Shown here one piece after another: positions 28,213 through 58,330 of a stretch of DNA of 64,000 bases. A program made the position numbers and the translations under genes. The notes below the pieces were generated by a model. That model had not been told where the DNA came from, made no database searches, and was given only the letters and a program-made list of their open reading frames with translations. Origin of the DNA: Spirochaetota bacterium (GTDB taxonomy: Bacteria > Spirochaetota > UBA4802 > JAFGDQ01); assembly GCA_034190085.1 (NCBI GenBank), contig JAXHTS010000050.1, positions 1 through 64,000 of the forward strand, in the 5' to 3' direction. Every line of letters begins with the position of its first letter. Positions within the stretch are counted from its first letter, which is position 1.

Positions 28213-29004
28213 ATGTCATACATTATTGGATTTGATATAGGTAATACCAACACAACACTTGGGATATATTGCGAAAACGAGACAGCACCGCTAAGAACCT
28301 TCAGATATAGGACTGAAAAGGGCATAACCACTGATGAACTCAGTCTTCAGGTTGAGGCTTTCATCAAGATTTTTAATAACTCTATAAGTAATGAGATAGA
28401 TATTGCAGGAATAGCCTTTTCGAGTGTAGTCCCTGAGATTGATCGCCTCTATAAAGAAATATCAAAAAGGTGTTATGGCCTTTCACCCCTTGAGATAGGT
28501 TGTGACCTAAATCTCGGATTAAGGATTCGTTATGATAATCCTGAACAACTCGGAGCGGATAGAATAACAAATGCAGTGGCGGCCTTTTATGAACATGACA
28601 GGGATTGTATAATAGTCGATCTTGGAACTGCAACCACCTTCTGCGTATTACACAAGAGTGGAATCTTTGATGGCGGTCTCATCGGTCCTGGAATTGGAAT
28701 CACAATCGAAGCATTAATGAATAAGACCTCAAGGTTAAAAGCAGTCAATTTCGAAAGGGTGGATAAAATTATCGCTAGAAACACAACTGATGCAATTAAA
28801 TCAGGTTTCTACTTCGGTTGGCTTTCAATGATTGAAGGGATATTAGATAGAATCGAAGGGCATTATAACAAAAATTTTTTAATAATTATCACCGGCGGAT
28901 ACTCTGAGATAATAGGGAAAAATATTTCAAAGACGAGTATTGCTGACTCACTCCTAACTATGAAGGGCATCAAATATATATATGATCTTAATTCTCACAG
29001 ATAA
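28213..29004 (+). CDS. coaX: Type III pantothenate kinase
   Basis: 263 residues. Catalyses the first step of coenzyme A synthesis, phosphorylating pantothenate. The three conserved ASKHA motifs are present: FDIGNTNTTLGIY at the start, EQLGADRITNAVAAFYEH and IVDLGTATTFCVL. Length is normal. It lies 73 bases after selB and may be read through from the selenocysteine operon. The ribosome-binding site is weak. Confidence 0.95.
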   Translation: MSYIIGFDIGNTNTTLGIYCENETAPLRTFRYRTEKGITTDELSLQVEAFIKIFNNSISNEIDIAGIAFSSVVPEIDRLYKEISKRCYGLSPLEIGCDLNLGLRIRYDNPEQLGADRITNAVAAFYEHDRDCIIVDLGTATTFCVLHKSGIFDGGLIGPGIGITIEALMNKTSRLKAVNFERVDKIIARNTTDAIKSGFYFGWLSMIEGILDRIEGHYNKNFLIIITGGYSEIIGKNISKTSIADSLLTMKGIKYIYDLNSHR

Positions 29005-29500
29005 ATTATTGAAACAGAATGTGAGATATAATAATCAGTAAAAATAATTGGTTATCCATATGAATTATCCACAAAGTTATCCACGTTATCCACAATGCGA
29101 TATCCTCCCTACAACCCATGGATAATAAGATTACACCCTCATTTCGTTATTAGAAATAGGTTTAAATGTGACACGATCAAAGCTTATGAGACATAATATA
29201 TATCAACCTCAAGGGTAAACCTTTACAGAAAAAACTATTTTTATAGATTATATTTCTTAGTTAGTTTTATTTACTTTTCGTCCTGTTCAAAGAGAGATAC
29301 GCCTAATCAATATTCATTGTTAATAAATTGTGAATATTTTTTTAATAACAGGTTATCTAAAATGACTTGCAATGTCTCTATTGGTTTGCATTAATTATGC
29401 TATTCACTTTGCATCCCAATATGTATTAAATGGAATCCAAAATACTAATCAAGGGTGAAAATATTTCACCTTCAGGAGAATATAGGGCAATGAGGTTAAT
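29005..29500. other. 496-base intergenic region with DnaA boxes and an AT-rich flank
   Basis: Contains the DnaA-box cluster (29052-29125) and then a strongly AT-rich stretch (about 29205-29360, for example AAAAAACTATTTTTATAG), which together resemble an origin region. No gene-like frame is visible. The last 50 bases contain the leader of the CheX-like gene. Confidence 0.5.
29052..29125. other. DnaA-box cluster, candidate origin or DnaA-control site
   Basis: Four boxes in direct orientation: TTATCCATA (29052-29060), TTATCCACA (29065-29073), TTATCCACG (29077-29085) and TTATCCACA (29086-29094). Two match the consensus TTATCCACA exactly, and the last two abut. A fifth, inverted, TTATCCATG lies at 29117-29125. 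dnaA, dnaN and gyrB are not in the window. It may be oriC, a secondary DnaA-binding site or a regulatory site. Confidence 0.6.
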
Positions 29501-29968
29501 ATGAATAATTACAACAGGTATTATCGCTGTATTGTCAAATCAGTTAATCATATATTTCACAATTTCCTACAGGATGACTCTATTGAGGAGGCTTTCGAGA
29601 GTCAATCAACCAAGAAAAGCCAGATGGTATCGATTGAGATAGATGGCACTATCTCGGGTGAATTGATACTCAATTTTCCGATTAAGACAATTAATCTCCT
29701 AACAAAGAGGTTCATTCCCAATGCTAACTCTCGCTCTACAAAAAAGCAACGGGCGGATGTGGCTGGAGAACTGGCTAACATGATTACGAGTTCCTTTGCT
29801 AATCAACTTCAATTTATTAAGCATGATATTCATATCTCAGCGCCTGAATTTGATGATGACCCTATTCAAGTAAAGGCATTATATGAAAATGTAAATGTCT
29901 CATTCACATCACGATTTGGGGGATTTGATTTAGATCTATACTATAAGAAAAATAAACATAAGACATAA
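29501..29968 (+). CDS. CheX-like chemotaxis phosphatase family protein
   Basis: 155 residues, matching the CheX/CheC fold. The signature helix ADVAGELANMITSSFANQL contains the E-x-x-N pair used by these phosphatases to act on phosphorylated CheY. An amino-terminal strand region (VSIEIDGTISGELILNF) precedes it. It may dephosphorylate a response regulator, but no chemotaxis genes are nearby, so the partner is unknown. A GAGG site precedes the ATG. The symporter gene starts three bases after its stop. Confidence 0.7.
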   Translation: MNNYNRYYRCIVKSVNHIFHNFLQDDSIEEAFESQSTKKSQMVSIEIDGTISGELILNFPIKTINLLTKRFIPNANSRSTKKQRADVAGELANMITSSFANQLQFIKHDIHISAPEFDDDPIQVKALYENVNVSFTSRFGGFDLDLYYKKNKHKT

Positions 29969-53329: not shown

Positions 53330-56300
53330 ATGGAACTTTCTGGCAAAACAATAAATCAACGTTATAGAATAGTTGAAAAGATCGATGAGGACCTCCTCAG
53401 CATCTATTGGAGGGCAACAATGGTCTCCTCCAATGATGAGGTTGCCATAAGATTATTAAAACACGTAAATTCGACATATAGAGTTGAAGACCTCATCCGA
53501 TTAAAAAAGGAAATAGAAATTATTTCCAAGATTGACCATCCCTGTATCACTAAAATTATCGATATAGATGAATATACAGAATCTCCCGATAGTGTAAACT
53601 ATACCTTTATAGTAACAGAGTCCATTCAAGGTATAAGCTTATATAGTTATTTAATAAAAAACGCAATGCTCACTGATCCTTTTGAAGCGCTTGAAGAGGA
53701 TAAGGCATTGGAAATAATAGCAAATATCAGCGAAGCTCTTCAGATTGTTCATGAAAATGGCATAGTGCACAGGGATTTAAATCCTGAGAACATCTGGTTA
53801 ATTCCAGGAAATGGGCATATTTCTCAGATTAAGATTTCTGGATTCGGGTTGATGGAACTAAAGGAATTATCAAAGATAAAGAGGTCTGAGGATATAATTA
53901 CTACCTTTAGTTATATGTCTCCTGAAGCAAGCGGGATAGTGAACAAGAAGATAGATGAACGAAGCGATCTCTATTCTCTGGGTGTATTATTTTATCAACT
54001 ATTGACAGGCAAACTCCCCTTTATCGGAAATGATGTGAACACAATCTTGCATAAGCATATTGCAATGGAGCCGTCTTCTCCTTCCATGATTAATAGAAAA
54101 ATTTCTCATGAGCTTGATGCAATAATATCAAAGCTTTTGAAAAAGGATCAGGATGAACGATATCAGAGCGCCATGGGGCTACTGGTTGATATACACAAGG
54201 TCTGGTATGGCGAAAGAGGGTTTGAGCTTGGCACAGCGGATAGAAGACTTCGATTGAGTTTTCAAACTGGGTTAATTGGTAGAGATAAGGAATTAACCTT
54301 ATTAAAGGAGTTATACAATAACGCGAGTGAATCTAAAGGGAGCATCTGCCTCATAGGTGGAGAAGCAGGAAGTGGAAAGACTAGATTGGTGGAGGAATTA
54401 AGGGGAGAGGTCTTTGATAAGGGTGGAATATTTATTTCAGGGAAATGTTTTGCAGGAAGAAACAAAATGCCATATCAGGTCTTTCATGATGCATTGAATG
54501 AATATCTGGATTCCTATAATAAACTAAATGATAGGATCAAGATAGAAATAAGAGATGGGATAAGAGGGGTTACAGGCGAGCTTGGGGAGATTATTCTAAA
54601 TCTCAATCCATCTATGCAGAATATCCTGGGGGATGTAAAACCCATTATTAGATTGGATGGCGACATTGAGAATGAAAGGTTTATGAATGTAGCATCAAAT
54701 TTGTTTTGTTCATTAGGAATAGATGGAACGCCAATAGTATTATTTCTGGATGATTTACATTGGGCAGATGAGAGTAGTTTATTATTACTTATAGAGATTG
54801 CTGATAAGATTAAAAGATCTCCATTACTCATTTTAGGGACTTACAGGGACAATGAAATATCAGAAAAACACGGATTAAATAGAATTATAAAAGATTTTCA
54901 TGGAATATCAAAGGTAAAGGTGAACCTGTTCGATTCACTGCAATTAGAGAGTCTTGTGACAAGCATTCTTGGTATAAAGGGATCGGATCTTCCACATGAA
55001 GTGATTGATTATATTTTTGAGAAGAGTAAAGGAAATCCTTTTTTTGGCATTGAATTATTAAGACAATTATTGGACGAGGAAGTTATAATCCGTGGAATTA
55101 CAGATTGGACAATTGATAATGACAAGATTGAAATGATTGAAGTTCCTGACTCAGTAATTGAGATAGTTTTAAAGAGGATCAAGTTATTGGGAGAGGAGGA
55201 GAGGGATTTAATAGCATATGGCGCAATTATTGGTTCAAAATTTGATATCGATTTATTATTTAAACTTAGTGAGATTAATCAGGAGAGAATTTTAACTATT
55301 ATTGATAAGGCTATAGATTTACAATTATTGGAGAAGAGCCCCTTTGATCAGAGGAAGTTGCTCTTTGTTCATGACAGGGTACGTGATGCCTTTTGTCATG
55401 AGTTAAGTACAGAAAGGGAAAGGATGATTCATCTTAAAATTGCACAAGCATTAGAGGTTCAAGGTAGAAATGATGATGTAATATTTTCTTTAGCGCGTCA
55501 TTATACTGAGGCTGAGGAGCATGATAAATCGCTCAAATATCTAATTCCTGCAGGTAATATTGCGAAAGAGAGGTATGCTAATGAAGAAGCAATAAGATAT
55601 TATAGATTAGCGTTAAAATTATTAGAAGAAAAATGCCAGGATGGCATCAATGAATGGGTAGAGACTAGTAACAATTTGGGTGAGGTCTTTTCTACGATTG
55701 GTAATTATGATGAAGCGATAGAGATCTTTAATAGGTTACTTCCATATACGGATACTCCAAATAGTAAGGCCAATATTTATAATCAAATTAACAGGGCCTA
55801 TTTTAAAAAGGGTAATTCGAAAGAGTGTGAAGAATTTGGGAGAGAGGGATTACGGTTATTAGATGAATATTTGCCAGTGAACACATTTCTGGTAATTGTT
55901 AGTATTATAAAAGAATTTTTAATACATCTATTCTTTAGTCTGTTCCCAGGATTATATAATCGCAATAAAGAGAATCCTCAACTCGAGAGGGATAGACTAA
56001 TAATAAATATTTATCATTCTTTAAATTGGTCATATGCTCTTAATGATGTTTTAAAATTTGTCAGATCTATCTTAAGAATGCTTAATGTATCTATGAGCAG
56101 AATAGGGAAATCCAAGGAACTTGGGTTAAGTATGGGAGGCTTTGCTAGCCTATGCATGGTAATAGGCTTATTTAAAAGATCTATAGAGTACAATGTAAGA
56201 AGTCTTAAACTCAAGGAAGAATTAAGCGATCAGTGGGGTATTGCACAGTCTCTTCAGTTTATGGGATTTTGTTATCAATGGATGGGTGAATACATAAAGA

Positions 56301-58330
56301 GTATTGATTGCTTCAATAAGAGTATAACTAAATTTGAGATAATGGGCGATAGCCGAGAAATCGTGATGTCAATTAATTGTCTGATCAGTAATTATATTTA
56401 TCTTTGTGATATTGATCGAGCTACAGCATTAATTGATCAATATATCGAGATTATAGAAAAGTCAAATGATGATTTTCAAATATGTTTTATCCGATGGATC
56501 AATTCTGAGTTATATTTTAAAAAGGGTGATTATGAAGAGAGTGAAAGATGGGGAATTAGATGCTGTAATCACAGTTTTGATAAAGAATTATGGGTGGTAT
56601 ATTGCAGAGCAAAAATATCCCTATGTGACCTGTTTTTAGAAAAAGGGGATATAAAAACAGCTTTTAAGCATGTAAAAGAAGCAAAGGAGATTTATAAAAG
56701 GAATAATCTACCTAGGGAGTATACCATTTCTTTATATACATATTTGGCGGAGATTACTATTGCTGATTATTTGAGTAATGAGGGAATTACATCAGGTCAA
56801 AGGAAATCATACTTAAGAAGGATAAAAAAGATATGCAAAGGAAGTTTACTAAAAACCAGAAGATGGCCGAATCATTATGGGATTGCTCTGAGAGTATACG
56901 GTAAGTATTATGCCTTAATTGGCAAAAACAGAAAAGCAGAGGCGCTATTTATACAAGCAATAGATCATGAGAAACGACTTGGAAGGCGTTATGAATTGGC
57001 AAAAAATTATTATGAGTATGGATTATATTTTAATAATAAAGGCAATCCTGAGTCTGCAAGGACAAATTGGCAAAAGGCTTATACCCTATTTAAGGAAATA
57101 GATTCCAAGATATATTTACAACGGATTTCTAATCTTCTCGGTATTACAGATGGTGAGGATTCCTATAAGGATAGATTTCTTGATAAAAGAAGATTGTCAT
57201 CAATTATAACTGTAAGTCAGCAGATAAGTTCAATCCTAAACATCAAGGAATTATTAGAGAGTATTGTTGCTAATGCAATTGAAGTTGCTGGCGCGATGAG
57301 AGGCTTTCTGTTCATTTATGATGAAGAGAGCAATTATCTGGAGTTACGAGCATCTAAAAGTGTGGAACAAGGGAAGATAGAATCAGATGAGTTGTTATAC
57401 TCTAAGGAAATTGTTGATGATGTCTATAATAAAGGCCAAATTATAATGACTCAAGATGCAATGGAGGATGATTCTTTTACTAAATATAGGGATTTGGAAT
57501 CAAAAGATTTAAGATCAATTCTATGTATGCCCATTAACCATCGTGACAAGAGAATAGGGGTTTTTTATTTAGACAATCGTTTATCGAAATCTGTCTTTGA
57601 TGAAAATGACATTGAGCTTTTAGGCGTATTCATCTCCCAGGCTGCTATATCAATCGAAAACGCCAGTCTATATTCGAATCTTGAAAAAAAGGTTAAAGAT
57701 AGGACTGAGCAACTTCAAGCGCTAAACAAAGAGTTGGAAGAGAAGAGTCGATTTTTTTATGAATTTGCACAGCGAGACAGTTTAACGGGTTTATTGAACC
57801 ATAGCGCGGTTCATGAGAGGCTGAGGGAAACCTTTAATGAGTCGCAACGTCACAAATTCCCGATGAGTGTTGTAATGATTGATATAGATTATTTTAAAGA
57901 ATTTAATGATAATTACGGCCATCAAGCTGGCGATGAAATTCTTATCAAGGTATCCATGATTTTTAAGGCAGGATTGTTGGGTAGTGAAATTAAAGGTAAA
58001 TTTGCACAAGAGGAGTATGATTCCCTGAAAGAGGAATTAAGAAAGTATGATATTGCTGGTAGATATGGCGGTGATGAATTTATTCTTGTTTTACCCTATT
58101 GTGGGGAAAGGGAGACACTAATTGTTTCTGAAAGGCTGCGTAAAAAGGTTGAAGCCATTAGGCTATCCCAAATAGATGAGGCATGTATCACTTCCACACT
58201 GGGTGTTGCTATTTTGGATGAGAAAACATCCTGTAATGACAGTACGGAGCTGGTTAGCCTGGCTGATAAGGCCCTTTATGAAGCAAAGATGAAGGGTAGA
58301 AATCAGATTTGTTTAAAGAAATATGAATGA
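53330..58330 (+). CDS. Pseudokinase-AAA ATPase-TPR-GAF-diguanylate cyclase protein
   Basis: 1666 residues. Residues ~10-290 are a protein-kinase fold: HRDLNPEN is intact, but the glycine loop is absent, the beta3 lysine is arginine (AIR, residue 41) and DFG reads GFG (171-173), so it is probably a pseudokinase. Residues ~310-690 are an AAA/STAND-like ATPase (GGEAGSGKTRLV; LFLDDLHWADES). Residues ~720-1270 are helical TPR-like repeats. Residues ~1295-1450 are a GAF domain, then a short coiled coil and a GGDEF domain (GRYGGDEF, with RKYD five residues upstream as inhibitory site). It likely makes cyclic di-GMP in response to a signal. Confidence 0.88.
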   Translation: MELSGKTINQRYRIVEKIDEDLLSIYWRATMVSSNDEVAIRLLKHVNSTYRVEDLIRLKKEIEIISKIDHPCITKIIDIDEYTESPDSVNYTFIVTESIQGISLYSYLIKNAMLTDPFEALEEDKALEIIANISEALQIVHENGIVHRDLNPENIWLIPGNGHISQIKISGFGLMELKELSKIKRSEDIITTFSYMSPEASGIVNKKIDERSDLYSLGVLFYQLLTGKLPFIGNDVNTILHKHIAMEPSSPSMINRKISHELDAIISKLLKKDQDERYQSAMGLLVDIHKVWYGERGFELGTADRRLRLSFQTGLIGRDKELTLLKELYNNASESKGSICLIGGEAGSGKTRLVEELRGEVFDKGGIFISGKCFAGRNKMPYQVFHDALNEYLDSYNKLNDRIKIEIRDGIRGVTGELGEIILNLNPSMQNILGDVKPIIRLDGDIENERFMNVASNLFCSLGIDGTPIVLFLDDLHWADESSLLLLIEIADKIKRSPLLILGTYRDNEISEKHGLNRIIKDFHGISKVKVNLFDSLQLESLVTSILGIKGSDLPHEVIDYIFEKSKGNPFFGIELLRQLLDEEVIIRGITDWTIDNDKIEMIEVPDSVIEIVLKRIKLLGEEERDLIAYGAIIGSKFDIDLLFKLSEINQERILTIIDKAIDLQLLEKSPFDQRKLLFVHDRVRDAFCHELSTERERMIHLKIAQALEVQGRNDDVIFSLARHYTEAEEHDKSLKYLIPAGNIAKERYANEEAIRYYRLALKLLEEKCQDGINEWVETSNNLGEVFSTIGNYDEAIEIFNRLLPYTDTPNSKANIYNQINRAYFKKGNSKECEEFGREGLRLLDEYLPVNTFLVIVSIIKEFLIHLFFSLFPGLYNRNKENPQLERDRLIINIYHSLNWSYALNDVLKFVRSILRMLNVSMSRIGKSKELGLSMGGFASLCMVIGLFKRSIEYNVRSLKLKEELSDQWGIAQSLQFMGFCYQWMGEYIKSIDCFNKSITKFEIMGDSREIVMSINCLISNYIYLCDIDRATALIDQYIEIIEKSNDDFQICFIRWINSELYFKKGDYEESERWGIRCCNHSFDKELWVVYCRAKISLCDLFLEKGDIKTAFKHVKEAKEIYKRNNLPREYTISLYTYLAEITIADYLSNEGITSGQRKSYLRRIKKICKGSLLKTRRWPNHYGIALRVYGKYYALIGKNRKAEALFIQAIDHEKRLGRRYELAKNYYEYGLYFNNKGNPESARTNWQKAYTLFKEIDSKIYLQRISNLLGITDGEDSYKDRFLDKRRLSSIITVSQQISSILNIKELLESIVANAIEVAGAMRGFLFIYDEESNYLELRASKSVEQGKIESDELLYSKEIVDDVYNKGQIIMTQDAMEDDSFTKYRDLESKDLRSILCMPINHRDKRIGVFYLDNRLSKSVFDENDIELLGVFISQAAISIENASLYSNLEKKVKDRTEQLQALNKELEEKSRFFYEFAQRDSLTGLLNHSAVHERLRETFNESQRHKFPMSVVMIDIDYFKEFNDNYGHQAGDEILIKVSMIFKAGLLGSEIKGKFAQEEYDSLKEELRKYDIAGRYGGDEFILVLPYCGERETLIVSERLRKKVEAIRLSQIDEACITSTLGVAILDEKTSCNDSTELVSLADKALYEAKMKGRNQICLKKYE

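Follow-up and report, generated by a model that had tools for sequence, protein, structure and literature searches.

The DnaA-box cluster and its setting

Does a dense cluster of DnaA boxes lying in a gap between two genes, away from dnaA, mark a replication origin or a site that controls DnaA? The question is raised by a 64,000-nucleotide stretch of DNA (the window, analysed here as a whole) from a member of an uncultured order of Spirochaetota. The gap between coaX and cheX (29005–29500) is 496 bp long, gene-free and 71% A+T, and carries four direct DnaA boxes on the + strand, at 29052, 29065, 29077 and 29086, with a total span of 43 bp (29052–29094). Two of the boxes are perfect and two have one mismatch, with the box at 29086 abutting the one at 29077, and the boxes lie where a first-pass annotation of the sequence had placed them. 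The inverted fifth box that it also reported is present at 29117 but weak (two mismatches), while its A+T-rich flank is real but mild (71–76% A+T), the peak of 76% at 29200–29360 being modest against a genome value of ∼62%. The features of the locus, with offsets counted from box 1, are as follows.

28213–29004, + strand: coaX, type III pantothenate kinase, upstream neighbour (PF03309, 2e-56)
29052–29060, + strand: DnaA box 0, TTATCCATA, one mismatch; an extra box outside the conserved trio
29065–29073, + strand: DnaA box 1 of the conserved trio, TTATCCACA, perfect
29077–29085, + strand: DnaA box 2 of the conserved trio, TTATCCACG, one mismatch; +12 from box 1
29086–29094, + strand: DnaA box 3 of the conserved trio, TTATCCACA, perfect; abuts box 2, +21 from box 1
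29113–29131, no strand: palindrome position (+48 from box 1); palindrome absent in the window, the weak inverted box at 29117 lying there instead
29117, − strand: weak inverted DnaA box, TTATCCATG, two mismatches
29184–29196, no strand: TTATGAGACATAA dyad, which many relatives also have downstream of their boxes
29200–29360, no strand: A+T-rich stretch (76%), including the far weak inverted boxes
29318–29337, − strand: two weak inverted DnaA boxes, TTATTAACA at 29318 (+253) and ATATTCACA at 29329 (+264)
29501–29968, + strand: CheX-domain gene, downstream neighbour (PF13690, 6e-10); not constant among relatives

Single boxes occur at chance level in the window (TTWTNCACA, 7 seen against 6.8 expected), so it is the clustering alone that is unusual. 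Order-2 Markov sequence totalling 19.2 Mb contained no group of at least three same-strand boxes (at most one mismatch each) within 43 bp, and a chance origin of the cluster was rejected on this ground. Close direct TTATCCAYR pairs number three at the window cluster and are otherwise found at one place only in the 4.27-Mb draft genome, where this is the densest DnaA-box cluster found. Elsewhere, the window holds a partial IS1182-family transposase (767–1489) and a 1666-aa fusion protein in which a TOMM-kinase-like middle part is combined with a Ser/Thr kinase and a GGDEF domain (53330–58330).

Conservation and geometry of the module

Boxes 1 to 3 form a core, TTATCCACA-N3-TTATCCACA-TTATCCACA, that is a lineage hallmark of the order. 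With three mismatches allowed, this trio was present in exactly one copy in 33 of 39 relatives, whose records are metagenome bins, and a reversed control pattern gave zero matches in the same 39. Across a phylum-wide sample, the core occurred exactly once in 36 of the 46 genomes of the order versus 3 of 347 other Spirochaetota; since these three matches were weak, the presence of the same element elsewhere in the phylum was rejected. A sequence profile (R1) that covers the trio plus the flank to its right raised the coverage of the order to 40/46, with G004, G009, G022 and G207 gained. All genomes of the order that are at least 90% complete carry the module, the six with no match all being less than 90% complete. 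Three further profile matches were examined, of which one (G115) was weak and unlinked and two (G260 and G044) lay at dnaA, as considered below. The module is real and is conserved across families of the order (labelled f1 to f7 below); the literature that we searched held no description of a comparable site in Spirochaetota.

The register of the trio is rigid, with box 2 at +12 and box 3 at +21 in every aligned copy, and no other module copy has a counterpart of box 0 at −13. A 19-bp palindrome, ATTAATTTA(C/G)TAAATTAAT, sits exactly +48 from box 1 in 19 of 34 copies and at +49 in one. Its halves co-vary symmetrically, the middle reading TTGA(C/G)TCAA in f3 and TTTCCGAAA in G204. Most palindrome-bearing genomes have no occurrence outside the module; the exceptions include genomes with single extra near-matches and G035, in which three overlapping copies (G035:C1:340386–340430; L210:386–430) lie upstream of a 293-aa open reading frame, 72 kb from the module. 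This reading frame could encode, or be controlled by, a palindrome-binding protein. The palindrome is missing from the window copy, from all of f1, f2 and f4, and from the sampled g12 members of f7, which makes the trio the constant part of the module and means that a protein partner recognising the palindrome would not be universal.

Further downstream, 18 of 31 module copies carry stronger inverted boxes between +250 and +279, a place occupied in the window by the weak inverted boxes at 29318 and 29329. The TTATGAGACATAA dyad is present in 10 of 31 copies, against 0.004–0.016 expected per 300 bp. A long conserved intergenic stretch with dyads could also be a structured RNA or an element of an untranslated region, which we consider very improbable: five module loci gave no Rfam match, on which basis an RNA element was rejected, and conservation is highest in the DnaA boxes and in a near-perfect DNA palindrome centred on a single base, a form that suits protein dimers better than a hairpin.

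Neighbouring genes and the site of replication initiation

The genes beside the module change among relatives. Upstream, coaX is the neighbour in f1, f2, f5, f6 and some of f7, and is lost in f4 and several f7 genomes. Downstream, cheX follows in the window's own genome (f1) and in f2, f3, f5 and f6; in two genomes of the window's family (G001 and G002) the place is taken by an NlpC/P60-type lipoprotein gene and coaD, in many f7 genomes by rpiB, and in f4 by other genes (the names coaD, NlpC/P60 and rpiB were read from protein sequences, without profile tests). The CheX-domain gene at 29501–29968 is strongly matched in 38 of the 39 genomes sampled from the order, besides a weaker paralogue, and 34 residues are invariant among 14 CheX-domain sequences.

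DnaA is also a known transcription factor, and the position of the module ahead of cheX in these families would suit a DnaA-regulated promoter region for the downstream gene. We judge this unlikely, because the downstream gene differs as listed above, a cheX with another upstream neighbour does not have the module boxes adjacent to it, and the trio lies ∼400–600 bp from the cheX start codon. The neighbours vary while the module stays, so the module does not follow one gene; regulation specific to cheX or coaX was rejected for this reason, and the independence from neighbours argues for a chromosomal cis function over promoter control.

The first-pass annotation had offered two readings, a replication origin distant from dnaA and a site that titrates or controls DnaA, and the evidence favours the second. 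As the check on dnaA position that it called for now shows, dnaA, beside which (with dnaN) an origin usually lies, is on another contig (C32) of the same draft. Its GC-skew check gave a partial answer within this genome: the window's contig has no negative-to-positive turn at the site, and the dnaA contig, 20 kb long with mostly positive skew on both sides, has no clear switch either. This contig being short and lacking a clear switch, the origin of the window genome was inferred from relatives. There, six genomes representing four families (G003, G004, G006, G012, G029 and G035; f2, f3, f5 and f7) show a negative-to-positive turn of GC skew at dnaA, and a switch at dnaA is suggestive in the f1 relatives G001 and G002. 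No negative-to-positive switch was found at the module in G000, G003, G004, G006, G010, G012, G015, G027, G029 or G035. Furthermore, dnaA has recurring DnaA boxes of its own on either side, for the most part of the weaker TTATCAACA type, a bipartite arrangement that is also seen at the Bacillus subtilis origin (PMC5295017).

Several observations would fit a chromosomal origin displaced from dnaA, namely the single copy, the strongest box cluster of the genome, the A+T-rich flank, the own dnaA contig with no clear switch, and the profile matches at the dnaA locus of G260 (dnaA–dnaN gap, E 1.9e-5) and G044 (beside dnaA, E 0.006), by which the trio resembles an origin element. Against them stand the skew of the relatives, which switches at dnaA and keeps one sign over the orthologous module, the orientation of the module relative to skew, which varies among genomes, and the boxes that dnaA has of its own. 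The displaced origin suggested by the first-pass annotation was rejected on the skew in relatives; the module is probably not a replication origin, and we give that reading little credence. An origin of a second chromosome or plasmid was likewise rejected, as the module and dnaA share one contig in G003, G012 and G004. The distances between them are 320, 357 and 21 kb, respectively, a sample of three genomes only that is biased toward proximity because both loci must share one contig.

In G260, a member of another spirochaete family, a close-packed, module-like DnaA-box trio lies between dnaA and dnaN (L235:1500–1572). In this the module resembles the oriC of other spirochaetes, in the dnaA–dnaN intergenic region, but the module trio is not beside dnaA and has no skew switch. 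The profile matches at the dnaA loci of G260 and G044 hint, though they do not prove, that the trio shares its descent with an origin element which was relocated or duplicated elsewhere.

A putative control site for DnaA

Sites away from the origin that control DnaA are well characterised in Escherichia coli and less closely so in Bacillus and Streptomyces, and direct-repeat DnaA boxes allow head-to-tail assembly of DnaA. Among the E. coli sites, datA speeds ATP hydrolysis, while DARS1 and DARS2 speed ADP release (PMC5742627, PMC4585315). A conserved, fixed geometry away from the origin indicates that the module most likely controls DnaA and thereby the timing of replication, and the control-site reading of the first-pass annotation fits the single copy, the order-wide conservation, the fixed geometry and the independence from neighbouring genes. 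Our preferred reading, held with reasonable but far from full confidence, is that of a non-coding, single-copy, off-origin, putative DnaA control locus that would lower initiation-competent DnaA as datA does.

Starting from the observed boxes, geometry, single copy, conservation and absence of a skew switch, we infer four elements of such a mechanism: DnaA binding, an oligomer, a partner protein and a loop. DnaA would bind next to one another at the three near-consensus boxes, all of which face one way, and form a short head-to-tail oligomer on the trio. Across much of the order, the palindrome at its fixed distance would be occupied by a further DNA-binding protein, a dimer, that would shape the complex, perhaps together with the far inverted box via a loop. 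After its own replication, the locus may then lower initiation-competent DnaA through DnaA binding, stimulated ATP hydrolysis, or both, as at datA. A variable orientation relative to skew fits a binding site acting by dosage. No Hda-like protein was seen in the window's own draft, and a further brake on DnaA would therefore be useful. The sole other PF00308 match there, a DnaC/IstB-type AAA protein (C35; L095:8615–9433), has an N-terminal cysteine-rich stretch and is possibly a helicase loader; similar PF00308 side matches occur in sampled relatives.

The likeness to datA lies in a non-coding, off-origin, single-copy locus of ∼260–290 bp with direct DnaA boxes and surrounding elements (PMC5742627). 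Every box essential for datA activity faces one way (PMC5742627), and the module is likewise an off-origin cluster of same-facing boxes. datA lies ∼470 kb from oriC, compared with 320–357 kb between module and dnaA in two genomes. The module differs in its three abutting or near-abutting consensus boxes, in the 19-bp palindrome that many copies carry rather than a shown IHF site, and in belonging to another phylum; we claim no sequence homology.

Inactivation, as opposed to reactivation, of DnaA is the least certain element of this explanation. In the DARS-like alternative, the trio would assemble ADP-DnaA and aid ADP release, raising ATP-DnaA before initiation. The cores of DARS1 and DARS2 consist of exactly three DnaA boxes with regulatory protein sites (PMC4585315, PMC4245941), strictly spaced and flanked by protein sites, and the module is likewise a trio, adjoined in many copies by a protein-type dyad at rigid spacing. 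This likeness concerns the number of boxes and the constancy of their spacing only. The module trio is purely direct and close-packed, and there is one locus per genome here versus two DARS loci in E. coli, where DARS2 and datA sit on opposite replichores at characteristic distances that draft genomes cannot match. We regard a reactivating site as rather unlikely, though the strongest of the alternatives, and favour a datA-like brake, a choice that the sequence does not decide. Membership of the module in either class is not claimed, as the biochemical definitions of both datA and DARS rest on activity.

The box clusters of B. subtilis and the cluster of Streptomyces are also off-origin boxes that restrain early initiation (PMC5295017, PMC4585315). 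In B. subtilis, six clusters act jointly and one alone matters little, whereas each genome here has a single module, whose geometry is the same from family to family.

More tentatively, and as a possibility we would not yet back, the module may be a lineage-specific DnaA switch, with one locus per chromosome where the ATP/ADP state of DnaA would be set by a DnaA trimer, joined across much of the order by a dedicated palindrome-binding dimer at the 48-bp register. Such a switch would have arisen independently of datA and DARS, possibly from a displaced origin element.

For origin-prediction tools the module is a caution, as the skew places the origin of these genomes elsewhere than at their best box cluster. 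It also offers a ready DNA target for finding the partner protein of the palindrome. A single, rigid, neighbour-independent module across a spirochaete order suggests that DnaA control of this kind arose more than once.
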